This document shows, one piece after another, positions 7,723 to 19,412 of a DNA stretch of 22,910 nt. The DNA is from a virus. Within the stretch, counting starts at the first letter, position 1. The number at the start of each line of letters is the position of its first letter. A program made the position numbers and the translations under genes. The notes beneath the pieces are model-generated. The model did not search any database, had not been told where the DNA came from, and was given only the letters and a program-made list of their open reading frames with translations. Location: positions 1-22,910 of the IMG/VR virus record IMGVR_UViG_3300025120_014484; one strand, 5' to 3'.

Positions 7723-7864
7723 CCCAGAATATTCTTTCTTTAATATCTGCACATTTTTTATCTAAATCTGTTCGCGGCATATGAACATAAATACTATTTT
7801 CGTATGTCCATCCGACAAACAAAGAAAAAAGAAATATCAGAATAATGGTGAAAACAAGTATCAT
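7637..7864 (-). CDS. Small single-pass membrane protein, unknown (75 aa)
   Basis: A 75-residue protein with one N-terminal membrane segment (MILVFTIILIFLFSLFVGW) and a charged, helical C-terminal part (DLDKKCADIKERIF, LDREHIAELTR) likely on the outside or periplasmic side. The start is ATG at 7864, giving an ATGA overlap with the stop of the upstream minus-strand gene; an upstream in-frame ATG at 7900 lies within that gene and is less likely. The layout (one anchor plus a short coil) is like that of an inner-membrane spanin or a holin accessory, but no motif proves it. The 3' end overlaps the plus-strand DUF3310-like gene by 86 bases. Confidence 0.62.
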   Translation of the reverse strand: MILVFTIILIFLFSLFVGWTYENSIYVHMPRTDLDKKCADIKERIFWAKHNLDREHIAELTRNEELSLDLSGRHR

Positions 7865-8337
7865 ACTGATATGTACATTACGTAAATAAATGCTCCACAT
7901 CCTAATATCATTGCCATTAGGATTATAGCCATCATTTTCATTTGTTCTACAAATTCGGCCTGTTCTCTTAGTTTTTCTCTTTTAATACGAGCCATTTCTT
8001 CCTTATGTTCTTGTATTCGTTTTGCTCTTTCATCTACAATCGATTGCCACGTGTTTGGACCAAAGCGCATATTAATCATGTTTTTCATTTCTTGCATTTT
8101 TTCTTGTGCAAGTTTAGCATCAATCATTTCTTGCGCTACGCTTTTAATTCCAAACTGGTCACCTATTGTTACTCCAGACTTTTTTGATCTTTCAGCCTGA
8201 ACCTCATCATGGCCGCGAAACAATCCGTCCACAGCACCTGCTATTTCGCCAATATCTTTTGCTGTATTGATATTAGACTTGATAAAATCTACGCTAGCTT
8301 TTAATAGAGATATTCCTGCTAGAGTTTCTGCAATCAT
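7861..8337 (-). CDS. Membrane-anchored coiled-coil protein, unknown (158 aa)
   Basis: A 158-residue protein I do not recognise. It has an amphipathic N-terminus (MIAETLAGISLLKASVDFI), a glycine-containing middle (EIAGAVDGLFRGHDEVQ), a long charged helix rich in Lys, Glu and Arg around residues 90-135 that looks like a coiled coil, and a C-terminal membrane segment (AIILMAMILGCGAFIYVMYI). This resembles a tail-anchored membrane protein. The start is ATG at 8337 with AAGGGA upstream on the minus strand, ten bases away. It is transcribed away from the tmRNA and coupled to the small membrane protein that follows; a shared role in lysis or envelope change is plausible. Confidence 0.68.
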   Translation of the reverse strand: MIAETLAGISLLKASVDFIKSNINTAKDIGEIAGAVDGLFRGHDEVQAERSKKSGVTIGDQFGIKSVAQEMIDAKLAQEKMQEMKNMINMRFGPNTWQSIVDERAKRIQEHKEEMARIKREKLREQAEFVEQMKMMAIILMAMILGCGAFIYVMYISV

Positions 8338-8439
8338 TTCGATTTATCCCTTACATAAGTTATGGATAAATGTAGATCACTCTTTGCATATTATTATTCG
8401 CTCCCGTAACTATTTATAAAAAAAATGAAATATTAGCTG

Positions 8440-8468
8440 TTTACTTTTATGAATAAGTATGGTATAAT
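8440..8468 (+). promoter_or_regulatory. Promoter for permuted tmRNA
   Basis: The -35 TTTACT (8440-8445), a 17-base spacer ending TATGG, and -10 TATAAT (8463-8468) share the GGTATAAT core with the other phage promoters. The palindrome after the -10 is not conserved here. Transcription should begin near 8475, just before the acceptor half of the tmRNA. Confidence 0.72.
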
Positions 8469-8474
8469 ATACTA

Positions 8475-8700
8475 ATATAAATAGACTTGAAGATGTTAGA
8501 TGGTAGACAGGACTCGGGGGCGGTACCCGACGGCTCCACCAATATCCACCTAAGGGTGTATGCTTATGGGGCCGAAATAGGATCGACTGATGCTGGAGTC
8601 TTCGAAGAGTAAATGCAAATGATAACATTGCACCTACAGGTTACGCCCTAGCGGCATAATACTGATGAGCCCGAAGGAGCTTGGAAACAGAATCCTTCAA
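8475..8700 (+). ncRNA. ssrA: Circularly permuted (two-piece) tmRNA
   Basis: The acceptor half comes first and the coding half second, the reverse of a normal tmRNA. The acceptor half ends in CGGCTCC-ACCA (8531-8541). Its T-stem TCGGG/CCCGA (8514-8518, 8526-8530) encloses a seven-base loop. The coding half begins GGGGCCG (8568-8574), which pairs perfectly with CGGCTCC (one G-U) to make the seven-pair acceptor stem. A 26-base spacer (8542-8567) between them would be removed. The long-range P2 helix is visible too: 8487-8494 pairs with 8598-8605 over eight pairs. The tag frame follows at 8615-8659, then a hairpin GAAGGA/TCCTTC (8673-8698) and a T-rich run. It would rescue stalled ribosomes with SmpB and tag the products for proteolysis. 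Exact ends are estimated from the promoter and last hairpin. Confidence 0.93.
8615..8659 (+). other. tmRNA proteolysis tag reading frame
   Basis: Read from the GCA resume codon, the frame gives ANDNIAPTGYALAA and a TAA stop. The ANDN start is typical of alphaproteobacterial tags, and the ALAA end is the canonical recognition end for ClpXP-type proteases. The middle, IAPTGY, is not one I recall, so the tag may be phage-specific. Confidence 0.92.
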
Positions 8701-8721
8701 CTTATTTTTATAGGAGAAATC

Positions 8722-9819
8722 ATGCCACCACGTAATCATAATAACTGGACCAAAACACCAAAAGTTGAATACATCAGTAGCGAATGCTACAATAACTTCG
8801 AAGTGTTTCAACAAGAGCAAGAGCACATCTTTTCAAAAGTATGGGTACCTATGTGCCACAAATCTGAGCTTCCGGAAGCAGGTAGGTTTAGAACAACTCA
8901 GATTGCTGGTCAAAACGTTATAGCAATTAACAATGGCGACAATATTAAGACATACTTAAATCCTGGAAAGTTTAGTACTCCAGCTGGATCGATGACACGA
9001 GTTCAATTCTTAATGGATGACTATACTCCTTTGCATACTGAAGTCAAACACGGTGGAATGGTATGGACAACATTAAATTCTAATCCTACACAAAGTGTAG
9101 ATGAATGGACTGCTGGTGCATTTGATTGTATTGCCGATGCCATTGATACCGAAGAGATGGAAGTATTCCATTACCATAAAGCGGTTATAGATACTAACTA
9201 TAAACTATGGCATGATACTAATAGCGAATTCTATCACGACTTTATGCATTACTTTAATCGAGTGTCAGGATTCAACGATGAGTATTTCGCTAGAAAGAAT
9301 ATTCCTTTTGATAATGGTCATGTTAATGTCAGCAGCTTTACTGTTAACTATGAAGAGTATGAAGGATTTGAGGATAGAGGGGAGTTATCTTTTCCCAATT
9401 TGCCGCCCAACCAGTGGTACATGGTCGACCTCTTCCCAGGCTTTAACTTCAACCTTCGTGGTAGCGCCTATAGGTCAGATTCAGTGACACCGCTTGGACC
9501 AAACAAAGTATTAATTGAGTTCCGCGGATACGGACTTAAGTGTGATACACCAGAAGAAAGACAAACAAGAATCAAACACCATAATTCTATTTGGGGACCG
9601 TTCGGTCGTAACCTACATGAAGATCTTATCGGTGTTGCGGGTCAAGGTACGACCATGAGAGAAGGTACCGAATCAAGAAACATTTTACACGGACGCCATG
9701 AAAATTCTACAATTCATGATGAAGTTGGAATGAGACATTACTATGAAGCATGGGGGAACATGTTGGGTGTAAGTCCAATGAATCCTTTACAAATGGAGCT
9801 TAGTAGAAAAGCTGCATGA
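8722..9819 (+). CDS. Rieske-type oxygenase homologue lacking the [2Fe-2S] ligands
   Basis: A 365-residue protein homologous to alpha subunits of Rieske non-heme iron oxygenases (the group that includes betaine, carnitine and stachydrine oxygenases). The N-terminal Rieske-like domain is recognisable (VWVPMCHKSELPEAGRF, residues 40-56, then IAGQNVIAINN) but the CxH...CxxH cluster ligands are missing: where 'NVCRHRG' is expected it reads LNPGKFSTPAG, and the second ligand loop is deleted. The catalytic domain looks kept: EFYHDFMH (169-176) and HEDLIGVAGQ with Asp301. The histidine pair is Hx3H, not the usual Hx4H. The start is ATG 8722 after AGGAG (8712-8716); an upstream in-frame ATG at 8665 lies inside the tmRNA. 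Activity without the Rieske cluster would need another electron donor, or a different chemistry. Substrate is unknown. Confidence 0.8.
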   Translation: MPPRNHNNWTKTPKVEYISSECYNNFEVFQQEQEHIFSKVWVPMCHKSELPEAGRFRTTQIAGQNVIAINNGDNIKTYLNPGKFSTPAGSMTRVQFLMDDYTPLHTEVKHGGMVWTTLNSNPTQSVDEWTAGAFDCIADAIDTEEMEVFHYHKAVIDTNYKLWHDTNSEFYHDFMHYFNRVSGFNDEYFARKNIPFDNGHVNVSSFTVNYEEYEGFEDRGELSFPNLPPNQWYMVDLFPGFNFNLRGSAYRSDSVTPLGPNKVLIEFRGYGLKCDTPEERQTRIKHHNSIWGPFGRNLHEDLIGVAGQGTTMREGTESRNILHGRHENSTIHDEVGMRHYYEAWGNMLGVSPMNPLQMELSRKAA

Positions 9820-10260: not shown

Positions 10261-10887
10261 ATGCTTACATTACTTACTAGTGGTACAACTGGAAAACAAA
10301 AAATAGTATATCATAATTGGCATAATATTGAAAAGCATGCCTATTACTCTTTATATAAGTATGGTATACATCAGCATTCAGTAATATTGAATATGTATCC
10401 TAATTCATCTATAGCACACTATACTTTAACTAGTTATCCAGCAATATTAGCTAAAGCTACTTTAAGCAACTTTGTGTGGAATCCTTATAACTTTAAAAAT
10501 GCTATAGATATAAAACCAACTCATATCGGCTGTACACCAAAACAAATAGAAATATTATCTAAAACAAAAGCTTGGAAAAGTATAGACTTAAAAAATGTAA
10601 AAATAATTATTGGTGGTGAAAAAGTAAATCAAGAACTAATAAAAATGTTAAATGACAAAGGATGCAGAGTGTATGTAACATACGGCTCTACTGAATTCCC
10701 TCCTGCCTATATGACAGGGTTTAATAGTGAGTGGTTAGTTTTAAATAATAGAAGTACTTTTATAGATAACGAATTACATATTGATAATATACCTACAGGT
10801 GATTTATTCGAAGTAGTAAATAATAAATGTAGATTTATAAAGCGAAAAGTTGAATCTAAAAATATAACATGGAAAAATAAATTATGA
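10261..10887 (+). CDS. Miniature adenylate-forming (ANL-type) enzyme
   Basis: A 208-residue protein of the acyl-CoA synthetase/NRPS adenylation superfamily, less than half the normal size. It begins straight at the phosphate-binding loop (LLTSGTTGKQK, residues 4-14) and keeps the YGSTE adenine/substrate motif (141-145), a TGD motif (179-181) and a trace of the A8 hinge (FIKRK, 192-196). Missing are the usual N-terminal 150-200 residues and the C-terminal lid domain with the catalytic A10 lysine. The ATG directly follows the preceding stop, and its end overlaps the full-length ANL gene by four bases (ATGA). It might form adenylates alone, act with the neighbour as a two-part enzyme, or be a decaying copy. 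The intact frame and kept motifs argue against simple decay. Confidence 0.78.
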   Translation: MLTLLTSGTTGKQKIVYHNWHNIEKHAYYSLYKYGIHQHSVILNMYPNSSIAHYTLTSYPAILAKATLSNFVWNPYNFKNAIDIKPTHIGCTPKQIEILSKTKAWKSIDLKNVKIIIGGEKVNQELIKMLNDKGCRVYVTYGSTEFPPAYMTGFNSEWLVLNNRSTFIDNELHIDNIPTGDLFEVVNNKCRFIKRKVESKNITWKNKL

Positions 10888-12320
10888 ATCCGTTCTATAC
10901 ATTATTACCAACCGATAGACCAGCTATTAGCGATATCAATGAAACAATAACATATAAAGAGCTTATACCACAAGCAATAAAGATACGAGATTGGCTAACG
11001 TCTTTAGGTTATAAGCATGGTCATCGTATTGGAATTGCCGGCAATCAATCGATTGAAACTTACAAATACTTTCTTGCAGCATGGATGGTATCGTCTACAG
11101 TAGGTTTAAGAATAGATCACAAACAAAATGATTGGAACCATAAGATTCCTGCTAGTAATTTAAACGTTGTTATAGAATTATCAAATGAAATAAAAGTACA
11201 TCATAAGCATTTTGATAAATCTACAGAATGCCCAAAAGAGTTTGCCACATATTTTAGTTCCGGAACTACTGGTAATAGGTGGGGACAAGCACAGACAACT
11301 CCTATGGTATGGGAAATAGATGAGCATAATTGGGGACAAAGCTTAGATGTAAATCACTATTGTCGTGCAATTGCAAATCCATATGTACAAGAACCAACAC
11401 AAAATATACAAATACAACCTATGCAACCATGGATTACATGGGGGCAAGAACTAGTTGCATATAATCTAATACATCAAGCGCATATAGTTCTAGTAGATAA
11501 ACTTTCTGAATGGGATACATTAGTAGAAAGATTTAAGCCAACTTGGACTGTAATGTTTCCTATGATAGCATTTAGATTAATGGAAGAAAATACTGGTACG
11601 AATCACAAATTAAAATGTGTGGAAATGTCTGGCGCTCGTCCAACATTAAAACAAATTGATGATATGAAAAACTTTTTTAATTGTGATTATTTTACATCAC
11701 ACTATGGAACATCACAAGCTGGTAATGTTAATTATAATTATGGTGACGGAAAAAATTTACAACACATTGGTAAAGTGTGTGAAGGGTTTATACACGCCTT
11801 TGGCGAAGATATGCATCGTATAGGAAAAAATGGAACCTTTGAAATTAAATGGCCAGCAAGTCCTCCAACAATGTTAAATGAAGATGGATATTATGATACT
11901 AATGACATTGTAGAATTAGACGATGATGGTAATTACCAATTTTTAGGTAGAGCAAACGAAATGCTTATGATACGCGGTGGATCTAAATTTCAGGCGCCGA
12001 GTGTTGAAGATAGACTTATGGAACATCCACATATAAAAGAAGCTTACATTTATCCAATACCTGACCCAAAAATAAATGATAGAGGATCGCTTTTTCAAAT
12101 ACCTGGATGTTTATATTTTGGAGATTTGACAGTAGATCAAGTAAAAGAATATTGTGCTGATCAGCTTCCGCCATATATGAGACCTATACATATTCATAAG
12201 CTAAGAAATAAATTATCTGTGTTTACTGATGAATCAATATGGAAAGTAAGAAGACTTTCTATGCATGATATATTATTGGAGAAAAAAAATGAGTGGTGCT
12301 CAGCTTCTTATTATCAATAG
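10884..12320 (+). CDS. AMP-dependent synthetase/ligase (full-length ANL enzyme)
   Basis: Adenylate-forming enzyme of 478 residues with both domains: it should activate a carboxylic acid as an acyl-AMP and usually pass it to CoA or a carrier. Motif A3 is SSGTTGNRWG (125-134); note that the usual lysine of 'GTTGxPKG' is tryptophan. A5 is HYGTSQAG, and the hinge region reads DTNDIV then GRANEMLMIRGG. The C-terminal lid has EDRLMEHPHIKEA and, near the end, SIWKVRR, whose lysine matches the catalytic A10 position. The start overlaps the mini-ANL gene by ATGA. The C-terminus overlaps the next gene. I cannot assign the acid: a short or modified carboxylate is as likely as a fatty acid. Confidence 0.86.
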   Translation: MNPFYTLLPTDRPAISDINETITYKELIPQAIKIRDWLTSLGYKHGHRIGIAGNQSIETYKYFLAAWMVSSTVGLRIDHKQNDWNHKIPASNLNVVIELSNEIKVHHKHFDKSTECPKEFATYFSSGTTGNRWGQAQTTPMVWEIDEHNWGQSLDVNHYCRAIANPYVQEPTQNIQIQPMQPWITWGQELVAYNLIHQAHIVLVDKLSEWDTLVERFKPTWTVMFPMIAFRLMEENTGTNHKLKCVEMSGARPTLKQIDDMKNFFNCDYFTSHYGTSQAGNVNYNYGDGKNLQHIGKVCEGFIHAFGEDMHRIGKNGTFEIKWPASPPTMLNEDGYYDTNDIVELDDDGNYQFLGRANEMLMIRGGSKFQAPSVEDRLMEHPHIKEAYIYPIPDPKINDRGSLFQIPGCLYFGDLTVDQVKEYCADQLPPYMRPIHIHKLRNKLSVFTDESIWKVRRLSMHDILLEKKNEWCSASYYQ

Positions 12321-13754: not shown

Positions 13755-14253
13755 TTATTTTGAATATAATTGGAAGCCTAATTATAATAATAGACAACTT
13801 TCTGGTTATTCATTAACGCGCAAATTAAACACGGGTCAAGATATACTTGACATCGGCTGTGGTTATAATCTTTTCAAAGAATCGTTCCCTAAAAATCTTC
13901 ACGGTATTGATCCAGCCAATGATGCCGCTGATGAACGCGTAAGTATTGAAGAGTTTAATAGTGTAGGAAAACAATGGGATGTTGTACTATGTTTAGGTTC
14001 TCTTAACTTTGGTGATGAGTCAGTCGTTAAACCGCAGGTAGAAAAAGCTGTTTCACTCTGTAAAAAAGGTGGGATTATATATTGGCGGCAAAATCCTGGG
14101 CAAAATGACCATAAGTGGGAAGGTATGGAAAACATTATATTTTTCCCTTGGTCTGAAGATTTAAATTATAAATGGGCAAAAGAGTTTAACTGCACTGTAC
14201 AAAAATGCTGTATGGACGGTAAACGAATTTATGCTGAATGGATTAAAAATTGA
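13729..14253 (+). CDS. Class I SAM-dependent methyltransferase
   Basis: A small methyltransferase, 174 residues. The SAM-binding motif I is ILDIGCGYN (39-47), followed by the acidic end of strand 2 (HGIDPAND) and the motif IV-like VVLCLGSLNFG (about 85-95), then KKGGIIYWRQNPG typical of the fourth and fifth strands. The cap is small, so the substrate may be a small molecule or a residue on a protein. The start overlaps the DUF6356-like gene by 26 bases and the end overlaps the TctA gene (TTGA). The operon context suggests methylation of the product of the neighbouring enzymes. Confidence 0.82.
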   Translation: MEQKEILNNYFEYNWKPNYNNRQLSGYSLTRKLNTGQDILDIGCGYNLFKESFPKNLHGIDPANDAADERVSIEEFNSVGKQWDVVLCLGSLNFGDESVVKPQVEKAVSLCKKGGIIYWRQNPGQNDHKWEGMENIIFFPWSEDLNYKWAKEFNCTVQKCCMDGKRIYAEWIKN

Positions 14254-15683
14254 ATGAGATATATGCACTCTTAGCCGGTACGTTTTATGGTTTAATGATA
14301 GGAATAATTCCAAGCGCTGGTGCTACAACAGGTCTTGTAGCTCTTTTTGGATTCATATCATATTTCATTAATGAACCATATTTAGGAGTCATTTTTTGTA
14401 TGGCTGTTGTTGCGGCGAGTACAACCGGTGATTCTTATGCCGGAGTTTTACTTGGAATTCCGGGTGCGAACAGCGCAGCTGCAACCATGGTTGATGGCTT
14501 TCCTTTAGCTCAACAAGGAAAAGCCACTTATGCAATCACAGCAGCAGTAACTGCAAGTACTATTAATGGCATTATATGGGGAACTCTTACCTTCGCTTTA
14601 CTTCCATGGTATAGTAAACTTATTATGATTCTTGGTATACCCGAACTATGGGCATTCACAATGCTCGCTCTTGCTACTGTTGCTTTTGTGTCAGGCAAAT
14701 GGTGGTTTAGAAGCTTTATTGCAATAGGTCTAGGAATATTTCTTGGACTGGTTGGTACAGATCCAGAAACAAACGCTGACAGATACACACTTGGATGGGA
14801 ATACTTAAGTGATGGTATACAAATAATGGCAGTGGCTGCAGGATTGTTTGCTTTACCTGAGTTAATCTTAGGTCTTAAAAGAATGCAAACATCGAATAAA
14901 AGTATTAATGAATTAACACAAACAATTGATGGGTTGAAAGCTGTTTGGCAAAACAAATGGGATTCTTTGCGTGGTGGATTTATAGGAGCGTTTATCGGAT
15001 TGTTGCCTGGGCTAGGTGGAGGAGCTGCGGACTGGATATCATATAGCGCAACTGTTGCAGCAAATCCGAAAGAAGATTTTGGTAATGGAAATATAAAAGG
15101 TGTAGTTGGACCAGAAGGAGCAAACAACGCTCAAAAAGCTACATCAATGATACCTACAGTTTTATTTGGAATACCCGGTGCAAAGTACGCTGCCGTTATT
15201 ATGGCACTTTTTTCTTATCTAGGTTTTGAACTAGGTACTATGGAGTTAGTTAGTGATCAAAAGTTTTTTGATAGTTTGACATATGGATTTATGTGGGCTA
15301 CTGTTTTAGTTGGAGTATTTTGTTTATTGTTTACAAGATATATTAGTGCAATTACTCGAGTTCCATATAAGTACTATTTCCCTATTATATTTCTATTCAT
15401 CGTGTGGGCATGCACAAGATACACAGGCGGATGGGAAGACTTTGCTATGCTTGGTATATTCACAATAGTCGGTTTAATTGCAAAGATATATAAATTTAGT
15501 AGACCAGGAATGATCATTGGATTTATACTAGCAGATAGAATTGAAGGTTTAACATTACAGATTAATGCGCTATATACATTTGAATCTTTGATGACAAGAC
15601 CGATATTTTTAACAATAGTTATAGGCGCAACTATAGCTTTTATTATAGGCATAAAATCTAAAAGGAAATTAAATTATGCGTAA
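14250..15683 (+). CDS. tctA: TctA, large permease of tripartite tricarboxylate transporter
   Basis: Integral membrane permease of the TTT family, which imports carboxylates with a periplasmic receptor (TctC) and a small subunit (TctB). The protein has 477 residues, close to the usual 500, with about 11-12 hydrophobic segments. Family hallmarks are TTGDSYAGVLLGIPGA (about 60-75), VDGFPLAQQGKA, RGGFIGAFIGLLPGLGG near residue 245 and the second repeat KATSMIPTVLFGIPGAKY. The start is read as TTG at 14250, overlapping the preceding stop; the first in-frame ATG lies 15 codons in, inside the first helix, so TTG with coupled initiation is preferred. No TctB gene is visible, but the TctC-like receptor follows at once. 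A phage copy would put carboxylate import under phage control. Confidence 0.9.
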   Translation: MNEIYALLAGTFYGLMIGIIPSAGATTGLVALFGFISYFINEPYLGVIFCMAVVAASTTGDSYAGVLLGIPGANSAAATMVDGFPLAQQGKATYAITAAVTASTINGIIWGTLTFALLPWYSKLIMILGIPELWAFTMLALATVAFVSGKWWFRSFIAIGLGIFLGLVGTDPETNADRYTLGWEYLSDGIQIMAVAAGLFALPELILGLKRMQTSNKSINELTQTIDGLKAVWQNKWDSLRGGFIGAFIGLLPGLGGGAADWISYSATVAANPKEDFGNGNIKGVVGPEGANNAQKATSMIPTVLFGIPGAKYAAVIMALFSYLGFELGTMELVSDQKFFDSLTYGFMWATVLVGVFCLLFTRYISAITRVPYKYYFPIIFLFIVWACTRYTGGWEDFAMLGIFTIVGLIAKIYKFSRPGMIIGFILADRIEGLTLQINALYTFESLMTRPIFLTIVIGATIAFIIGIKSKRKLNYA

Positions 15684-16731
15684 ATTGTTATTAGCAGCAA
15701 TGTTAATGTTTTCAACACCAGCATTTGCAGACTATACATTCGTAATTCCACAACGTCCGGGTAGTGGAACAAGTATTTGGGCTGAAATCGTAGCAAAAGA
15801 ATTAGAACCATTTCTTGGTGAAAAAATTATTATTAAAAACATTCCGGGAGGTAGAGATATTCCGGGCTTTAATAAGTTTCATAATGAGTTACAGTATGAT
15901 GATAAGACAGTAATGGTATCACATGGCGGTAACGGCGTATCATTTTTACAAGAAAAAGTAGATTATGATTATAACGATTATACCAGCATTGGTTTAATGA
16001 ATCTTAATATTATTACAGCTATTCGTAAAGACTATGATCCTCAAGAAAAAATTAAATTTTCTGCTGGCTCAGGACAAACACCAGAAGCTTATGCAATGAC
16101 TATGCTATTGTGTGGTCCACGACTTACTACCGATGAATATATTGCATGTTTTAAAGATAATGTAGTGTGGGTAAAAGGTATGAAAGGTGGAGAAAGACGG
16201 TTAGCATTTAAACGTGGTGAACTTAACGCAACTCGTGAAAATCCCGCAGCTTTCAAAAAACATGTTATGCCAGATGAAAATGCAGAAGTTTGGTTTCACC
16301 ATGGCATATTACAGCCAGACGGAAGCCACGCTGATGATGCTAACTATCCGGGTTATCAATTTGAAATGCTATTCGAAAAGTATTATTTCGAAAAACCATC
16401 CGGTGAATTTTATAATGCATATAAACTTGTTAAGAGTTTTAGAGATGGATTACAAAAAGCATTATGGGTACGTAAAGATAATCCCAATGCACCAATGCTA
16501 CAAGCCGCTTTAGTTGCTATGACACAAAATACAGATTCGCGATTAAGAATTGAAAAGAAAGTTGGCAAATATAATTGGTTAATTGGTGTTGCCGGCGATG
16601 CTCATAGAGATGTGCTTATGACATTAATTAATAGAGATGCTTTAAGGACTCTGGTAAAATTTAATAAAGAAGCTTTAGGATTAAAAAGCATGTTAAAAGA
16701 ATTAGCAGGTTTGAGTATAGTTTATAAGTAA
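15676..16731 (+). CDS. TctC-like periplasmic solute-binding protein (BUG family-like)
   Basis: Periplasmic receptor for a tripartite tricarboxylate transporter, 351 residues. The signal peptide is clear (MRKLLLAAMLMFSTPAFA, cut near residue 18). The mature start FVIPQRPGSGTSIWAEIVAKEL matches the receptor family's 'PGGGTD..ARL.A..L', and LGEKIIIKNIPGGRDIPGFN corresponds to the strand and loop that bind the ligand. The rest is divergent, and there are two cysteines (in LLCGP and IACFK). ATG 15676 follows AAAAGGAA at 15660-15667 and overlaps the end of tctA by eight bases, so the two are co-translated. Ligand not predictable; citrate-like acids are only a family default. Confidence 0.82.
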   Translation: MRKLLLAAMLMFSTPAFADYTFVIPQRPGSGTSIWAEIVAKELEPFLGEKIIIKNIPGGRDIPGFNKFHNELQYDDKTVMVSHGGNGVSFLQEKVDYDYNDYTSIGLMNLNIITAIRKDYDPQEKIKFSAGSGQTPEAYAMTMLLCGPRLTTDEYIACFKDNVVWVKGMKGGERRLAFKRGELNATRENPAAFKKHVMPDENAEVWFHHGILQPDGSHADDANYPGYQFEMLFEKYYFEKPSGEFYNAYKLVKSFRDGLQKALWVRKDNPNAPMLQAALVAMTQNTDSRLRIEKKVGKYNWLIGVAGDAHRDVLMTLINRDALRTLVKFNKEALGLKSMLKELAGLSIVYK

Positions 16732-18452: not shown

Positions 18453-19412
18453 ATGAATAAACTAAGTATGGTTGCGGTTGCTGCCGTGGCAATGATGAAC
18501 ACCAGCGCATATGCGTGTGGTAATATTACAATGGCAGGATTGAGCTGGGGATCGGCTGCAATTCTAGGTGCCATTGATCAAAAAATTGTAGAAGAAAATT
18601 TTGGATGTCAAGTTGAAGTTATTCCCGGCGGAACAGTTCCATCTTTTACTTCTATGACTACAAAGGGCGTACCTGATATTATGGGTGAACTCTGGCCGAA
18701 CGCAGCCGGAATTGATTTATACGATAAGGCAATCGCTGATAATCGTATTGTGTCAGTTGCCAAATCTTCACCGATTGGTGGTGTAGCTGAAGGTTGGTAT
18801 ATTCTACCTAATATTCTAGAAAAAAATCCTGAACTTACAACTCTTGAAGCCGTGTTAAATAGACCAGATCTATTTCCGCACTACGAAGATGAGAGTAAAG
18901 GTGGATTTGTAACATGTCCTCCTGGTTCTGGTTGTCAAATTTCTAATGCAAATCTTTTTGTTGCAAATCGTATGAAAGAAAAAGGATGGGAAATGATTGA
19001 ACCGGGTTCGTATGCTTCTGAAGATGCAACTATTACTAAAGCAGCACTACGGAATAAGCCATGGTTCGGTTACTATTCAGCTCCTACAGCTTTTGTCGGT
19101 AAATACAATCTAGTAAAACTTGACTGGGGCGTTGACTTTGCTGGCCAAGAAAATTGGAATTGTATTACAAAGCCAGATTGTCCAGCACCAAAGCCTTCAG
19201 CATGGACAGAATCTTTTGTTCGAACTATTTTTACTCAAGAGTTTGATCAAAAAGTATCTCCTGAAATGAAAAGCTATTTTGCTACTCGTGTTATTCCAGG
19301 AGATTTAATGAATAATTTGCTATTGTACAAAGAAGATAACCAAGCAACGCCTGAAGAAGTTGCAGAGTATTTTCTAGAAACATATCCTGAAGTATGGAAA
19401 AACTGGCTATAA
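18453..19412 (+). CDS. ProX/OpuAC-type glycine betaine/choline-binding protein
   Basis: Periplasmic substrate-binding protein of betaine-type ABC transporters, 319 residues. A signal peptide ends near SAYA (residue 21), leaving Cys22 at the mature start. The family pattern is good: ITMAGLSWGSAAILGAIDQKIVEENFGCQVE, then PDIMGELWPN, GVAEGWYILP and KPWFGYYSAPTAFVGKY, with tryptophans 32, 81 and 115 available for an aromatic cage around a quaternary amine. ATG 18453 follows AAGGAG at 18437-18442. It has its own promoter and a strong terminator, so it is a stand-alone unit. No permease or ATPase gene is in the window, so it would work with host OpuA-type subunits to boost uptake of betaine, choline or similar osmolytes. 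Confidence 0.87.
   Translation: MNKLSMVAVAAVAMMNTSAYACGNITMAGLSWGSAAILGAIDQKIVEENFGCQVEVIPGGTVPSFTSMTTKGVPDIMGELWPNAAGIDLYDKAIADNRIVSVAKSSPIGGVAEGWYILPNILEKNPELTTLEAVLNRPDLFPHYEDESKGGFVTCPPGSGCQISNANLFVANRMKEKGWEMIEPGSYASEDATITKAALRNKPWFGYYSAPTAFVGKYNLVKLDWGVDFAGQENWNCITKPDCPAPKPSAWTESFVRTIFTQEFDQKVSPEMKSYFATRVIPGDLMNNLLLYKEDNQATPEEVAEYFLETYPEVWKNWL

Follow-up and report, generated by a model that had tools for sequence, protein, structure and literature searches.

A two-piece tmRNA gene without pseudoknot PK1, preceded by a T4-type late promoter box, in a T4-like phage

The locus described here raises the question of what form of tmRNA a T4-like phage carries, and how the phage would express and use it. 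The window (the whole stretch of 22,910 nt that was analysed) is a 22.9-kb virus record, IMGVR_UViG_3300025120_014484, representing a fragment of the genome of a marine T4-like phage. Its T4-like genes encode the UvsX recombinase, a DnaB-type helicase, ThyX, a DNA alpha-glucosyltransferase and a cytosine methylase, and the closest isolate is phage C48C1 of the Kyanoviridae (75.5% identity for UvsX and 68.3% for the helicase). The tmRNA gene is flanked by a minus-strand gene at 7861-8337 and by an oxygenase gene at 8722-9819.

Elsewhere in the window, genes for the DNA alpha-glucosyltransferase, a nucleotide-sugar epimerase and the cytosine-C5 methylase stand in a row (29-2942), which suggests that the phage DNA is modified. 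Transport genes, unusual for a phage, occupy 14250-16731 and 18453-19412; they encode a TctA family membrane protein (Pfam PF01970, E 1.7e-91), an adjoining protein that resembles its periplasmic partner and has no Pfam match, and a glycine-betaine-type substrate-binding protein (PF04069). Two neighbouring AMP-binding (acyl-CoA synthetase-like) genes are located at 10261-12320.

The permuted tmRNA gene and its known relatives

Positions 8489-8702 of the plus strand encode a circularly permuted alpha-type tmRNA, which scores 94.5 bits with the Rfam model alpha_tmRNA RF01849 (cut-off 50, E 6.8e-25) and 85.2 bits with a second permuted-tmRNA model, RF04321 (cut-off 47). ARAGORN, proposed earlier as a check, reported no tmRNA in the window at default settings but returned the same gene and the same tag once its threshold was relaxed. 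The parts of the gene are as follows.

8487-8494, plus strand: P2 helix, 5' strand, pairing with 8598-8605; covaries in relatives
8489-8541, plus strand: acceptor piece (Rfam match), stopping at the encoded CCA; 5' end predicted
8514-8530, plus strand: T arm, stem 8514-8518 with 8526-8530 and loop 8519-8525 (Rfam alignment)
8531-8537, plus strand: acceptor stem, 3' strand CGGCTCC, pairing with 8568-8574
8538-8541, plus strand: discriminator A (8538) and encoded CCA (8539-8541), from the sequence
8542-8567, plus strand: spacer of 26 nt, expected to be cut out
8568-8702, plus strand: coding (messenger-like) piece (Rfam alignment); 3' end approximate
8568-8574, plus strand: acceptor stem, 5' strand GGGGCCG; third pair G-U
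8598-8605, plus strand: P2 helix, 3' strand, followed by just 9 nt to the resume codon
8615-8659, plus strand: tag reading frame, resume codon GCA at 8615, ANDNIAPTGYALAA-stop
8666-8698, plus strand: 3' H-type pseudoknot, 8666-8670 with 8679-8683 and 8673-8678 with 8693-8698, from the sequence

The first-pass annotation had proposed a phage-encoded permuted tmRNA, and both Rfam models bear it out, as do the order of the halves (8489-8541 before 8568-8702), the spacer of exactly 26 nt and the P2 helix, whose eight positions all pair (two of them as G-U). The acceptor stem that it called perfect has indeed seven pairs of seven, but the third is a G3-U70 wobble. This wobble is the usual alanine identity signal, and G-U at the third pair is constant in all 12 versions of the stem found in viral relatives. 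Compensatory changes across these relatives are seen in the T stem (19 distinct versions), in P2 and in the acceptor stem, where covariation is slightly favoured by our parser, which demanded at least 6 of 7 acceptor pairs. The window tag ANDNIAPTGYALAA ends in ALAA, and nearly all tags of relatives start with A-N and finish with -AA. Spacer length spreads widely in relatives, from about 8 to 277 nt.

A permuted tmRNA in a T4-like phage, which was first taken to be new, has been published for two marine T4-like phages, Melnitz and Mosig (PMC9004378), and the 2021 survey in the Melnitz paper counted 53 two-piece RNAs among 133 unique phage tmRNA structures (PMC9004378). The alpha_tmRNA cut-off is exceeded by 24 of the first 50 viral contigs with the oxygenase and by 16 of 50 viral contigs chosen by UvsX. 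In Brevundimonas phage Bajun, the segment that matches the window carries a tmRNA annotation, and isolate phages match the window tmRNA DNA only in short pieces. Intact permuted tmRNAs are also present, though unannotated in the records, in isolate phages of Ruegeria, Rhodobacter, Phaeobacter and Mesorhizobium; in one of them, RcRudolph, a hypothetical protein is annotated over the tmRNA. Permuted phage tmRNAs are thus already known, and the window tmRNA is a variant whose most distinctive features, absent from the earlier reading, are the PK1-less form and a T4-type late box.

The nearest known systems compare as follows. The SsrA of Methylophilales phage Melnitz (MZ577097, PMC9004378) is also a two-piece RNA of a marine T4-like phage (Kyanoviridae) with TATAAATA upstream; unlike the window tmRNA, it has a resume offset of 82 nt, which places it in a PK1-bearing group, a spacer of 142 nt, a glutamine riboswitch reported with the tmRNA (PMC9004378) and, at a distance downstream, a late-transcription coactivator gene rather than an oxygenase. 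The SsrA of Pelagibacter phage Mosig (MT647606) is likewise a tmRNA of a marine T4-like phage and adjoins ThyX, but a late-transcription accessory gene follows it and its offset is about 66 nt in an uncertain parse. The alphaproteobacterial two-piece tmRNA (RF01849) shares with the window the permuted order, the G3-U70 acceptor stem, the T arm, P2, the 3' pseudoknot and the type of tag; however, its consensus has PK1 columns, which are deleted in the window tmRNA, and it uses a host promoter instead of a late box.

Absence of pseudoknot PK1 among viral tmRNAs

PK1, the pseudoknot between P2 and the resume codon, is usual for this type of tmRNA, though not strictly defining. In the window tmRNA it is absent: 47 nt lie between the mature 5' end and the resume codon, P2 is separated from that codon by 9 nt, and the PK1 columns of the Rfam alignment are a gap. 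We parsed 193 distinct viral permuted tmRNAs for the distance from the mature 5' end to the resume codon, and these offsets fall in clear groups.

Class A (including the window tmRNA): offset 46-49 nt, 54 RNAs
Class B: offset 56-60 nt, 22 RNAs
Class C: offset 61-66 nt, 30 RNAs
Class D, the PK1-bearing group: offset 78-96 nt, 86 RNAs
Outlier: offset 33 nt, 1 RNA

In class A, the resume codon follows P2 at a distance of only 7-12 nt in 48/54 RNAs, and in class B at 11-12 nt in 20/22, whereas the gap is mostly larger in class D. The two strands of P2 change together (GAAGAT/GTCTTC, GTAGAT/GTCTAC, GTAAGC/GTTTAC and others), and P2 is fully paired over six positions in 53/54 class A RNAs, against 23.6/54 when strands are swapped between phages. 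Unconstrained two-strand folding of P2 gave inconsistent structures, and covariation was used in its place. Because the gap is so short and P2 is supported by covariation, classes A and B have, on the sequence evidence, no space for PK1. This form comprises 76 parsed viral tmRNAs, and its share in sets not selected for the absence of PK1 is 8/81, 4/18 and 2/8 parsed RNAs. The 3' pseudoknot fold is present in 53/55 class A relatives. Isolate phages that could be parsed have offsets of 82-89 nt, with the exception of Mosig.

Class C tmRNAs, with their offsets of 61-66 nt, may hold a reduced PK1; examples of this class were seen at loci outside the window's gene context. Three related PK1-less tmRNAs have an unusually long, basic tag of 31 residues, ANDNVAQPKFMKKRNTFARKVGFTKGMALAA.

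One could suggest that the window encodes an ordinary alpha-type tmRNA, one more of the Melnitz kind, whose PK1 has been shortened or is hidden by misalignment. Both Rfam models accept the RNA, and Melnitz and Mosig are annotated precedents. Nevertheless, just 9 nt lie between the resume codon and a P2 that covariation supports at this very place, the Melnitz RNA itself belongs with its 82-nt offset to the PK1-bearing group, and viral offsets are grouped, not continuous. We therefore consider this explanation quite unlikely.

To see where else the form occurs, we used the search pattern GGATCGAC, 14-40 nt, AAWTGCAAANGAYAA. It was found in at least 120 viral contigs, some of them class C, and in 84,980 prokaryote species genomes it gave no true case: two contigs matched, and both matches proved to be chance hits inside coding regions, without an Rfam match and not tmRNAs. 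The end motifs of the pattern fit 53/54 class A but 26/86 class D RNAs, which limits the sensitivity of the genome scan, and the scan may have overlooked PK1-less genes of bacteria whose motifs differ. Within a motif scan of this limited sensitivity, the PK1-less form was found only in viruses; a lone bacterial exception on record is the Oenococcus oeni tmRNA, which is without one PK1 helix (PMC1168896).

Most class A and B RNAs share a conserved locus within a T4-like clade, with the gene context of the window: DnaB, ThyX, a DUF3310 gene and a minus-strand gene precede the tmRNA, and the oxygenase often follows. Class D is also present in the same clade. Since the oxygenase is found in unrelated phages too, the oxygenase tree was set aside and the helicase tree preferred; on it, at least six changes of PK1 state are required, which may reflect recurrent loss or an exchange of the RNA gene between phages. 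As for the earlier proposal of an alphaproteobacterial host as the source, the data agree with it as far as compatibility with the alpha-type family goes. Any capture from a host is probably old, because the gene occupies a conserved locus in a large phage clade.

Promoters and the downstream gene

The elements that flank the tmRNA gene are the following.

8440-8468, plus strand: sigma70-like promoter, TTTACT, 17 nt, TATAAT, extended TG (consensus scan)
8476-8483, plus strand: T4-type late promoter box TATAAATA, predicted start 8489
8712-8716, plus strand: ribosome-binding site AGGAG of the next gene, about 10 nt past the tmRNA (sequence)
8722-9819, plus strand: ring-hydroxylating oxygenase alpha subunit (Pfam PF00848)

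The promoter of its own that the first-pass annotation gave to the gene can be found as the sigma70-like site, but such sites are expected by chance (three in the window against 2.1 in shuffles). The late box TATAAATA is the better-supported promoter element. Its copy at 8476-8483 is the only one on the plus strand of the window, and an exact TATAAATA occurs within 220 nt upstream of 133/193 viral tmRNA genes, nearly always at a fixed distance, while shuffles predict any such box in 3-5%. About 30% of relatives have no exact box, and thus the late promoter is not universal.

The T4 late box spans -13 to -6 (PMC2988020). Since T4 boxes begin at -13, 8489 is the predicted +1, and the P2 core GAAGAU starts with this very base; in most other class A and B genes, the helix starts 2-6 nt past the box. 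Homologues of the late sigma factor gp55 (59-64% identity) are encoded by seven long related contigs, class A contigs included, the window itself being a fragment. In C48C1, the same box stands 29-85 nt before several structural genes. TATAAATA could also act as an ordinary -10 element, and what favours the late reading is that all 8 bp match exactly and that the setting is T4-like.

The tmRNA ends about 20 nt before the start of the next gene, with the ribosome-binding site in between, and no terminator-like site was found after it. A nearby start with a ribosome-binding site follows 31/47 class A and 18/20 class B genes, compared to 6.6% of random positions. From the adjoining ribosome-binding site and start, the conservation of this arrangement and the lack of a terminator-like site, the tmRNA and the message of the next gene probably form one transcript, which would be split when the tmRNA 3' end is formed.

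The oxygenase is 72.6% identical to the annotated methanesulfonate monooxygenase alpha subunit of the SAR116 phage HMO-2011, and at least 599 viral contigs carry a relative. One 316-kb viral contig has a tmRNA with a 277-nt spacer at 8434-8985; its oxygenase is 96% identical, although the relationship of its head protein is only distant, and the oxygenase gene thus appears to pass from one phage to another across unrelated lineages.

Proposed function and its meaning

Most probably, this gene encodes a functional two-piece, permuted alpha-type tmRNA that is naturally PK1-less. We infer the following course of events. Directed by the phage late sigma, RNA polymerase would initiate near 8489, where the conserved P2 core begins, and the sigma70 promoter would possibly supplement expression earlier. 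Host tRNA-processing enzymes would cut after CCA (8541) and before the mature 5' end (8568), discarding the 26-nt spacer, and the acceptor stem and P2 would keep the two pieces joined. Host alanyl-tRNA synthetase would charge the CCA end via G3-U70, and SmpB would carry the RNA to stalled ribosomes; it is presumed to be the host's, because no SmpB gene was found in 19 related records (several of them fragments). Translation would resume at GCA 8615, and the tag ANDNIAPTGYALAA would direct the product to the host's proteases. The phage would probably gain from the recycling of ribosomes stalled on broken messages late in infection. In 13 relatives, several with long spacers, tmRNA and tRNA were the only Rfam families found.

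The alpha-type tmRNA and the resemblance of the next gene to one in SAR116 phage HMO-2011 point to an alphaproteobacterium as the likely host, although phages of a different class may have an alpha-type tmRNA too, as Melnitz demonstrates (PMC9004378).

A different role would be that of a decoy that occupies SmpB or ribosomes and so inhibits trans-translation in the host. Such a phage inhibitor has been described: mycobacteriophage DS6A bears a tmRNA-like RNA for which this role was proposed and which is reported as inhibitory, but that RNA has little beyond its tRNA-like domain. Here the resume leader, the full tag frame and the 3' pseudoknot are intact and conserved, and the intact tag frames argue against a pure decoy, which we find very unlikely. 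That the gene is a captured host ssrA or a functionless integration-site remnant is extremely improbable: ssrA genes often serve as integration sites, and an origin by imprecise excision has been discussed for the Melnitz tmRNA (PMC9004378), but the conserved locus in the T4-like clade, the compensatory stem changes, the phage-type late box and the failure of the motif scan to find the PK1-less form in bacterial genomes all speak against it.

Beyond the functional tmRNA itself, we give about even chances to a broader proposal: a phage-only class of two-piece tmRNA which lost PK1, with the changes of state traced on the helicase tree, whose T4-type late promoter sets the 5' end and so makes 5' processing of the acceptor piece unnecessary, and whose transcript continues as the message of the next gene, freed by 3' trimming of the tmRNA.

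A late promoter would put the phage tmRNA among the functions of late infection. This timing contrasts with the early role suggested for the Melnitz tmRNA, which lies just downstream of an early promoter (PMC9004378).

The need for PK1 has been debated mainly from engineered E. coli mutants. According to PMC4236655, citing Wower 2009, engineered E. coli tmRNA with a hairpin or single-stranded RNA instead of PK1 still tags; one review states that tagging requires PK1 (Nameki 2000), yet that a hairpin can replace it. The engineered E. coli tmRNA is one-piece and man-made, whereas the window tmRNA is natural and two-piece. A natural, widespread PK1-less lineage beside PK1-bearing sisters at the same phage locus offers a ready-made comparison.
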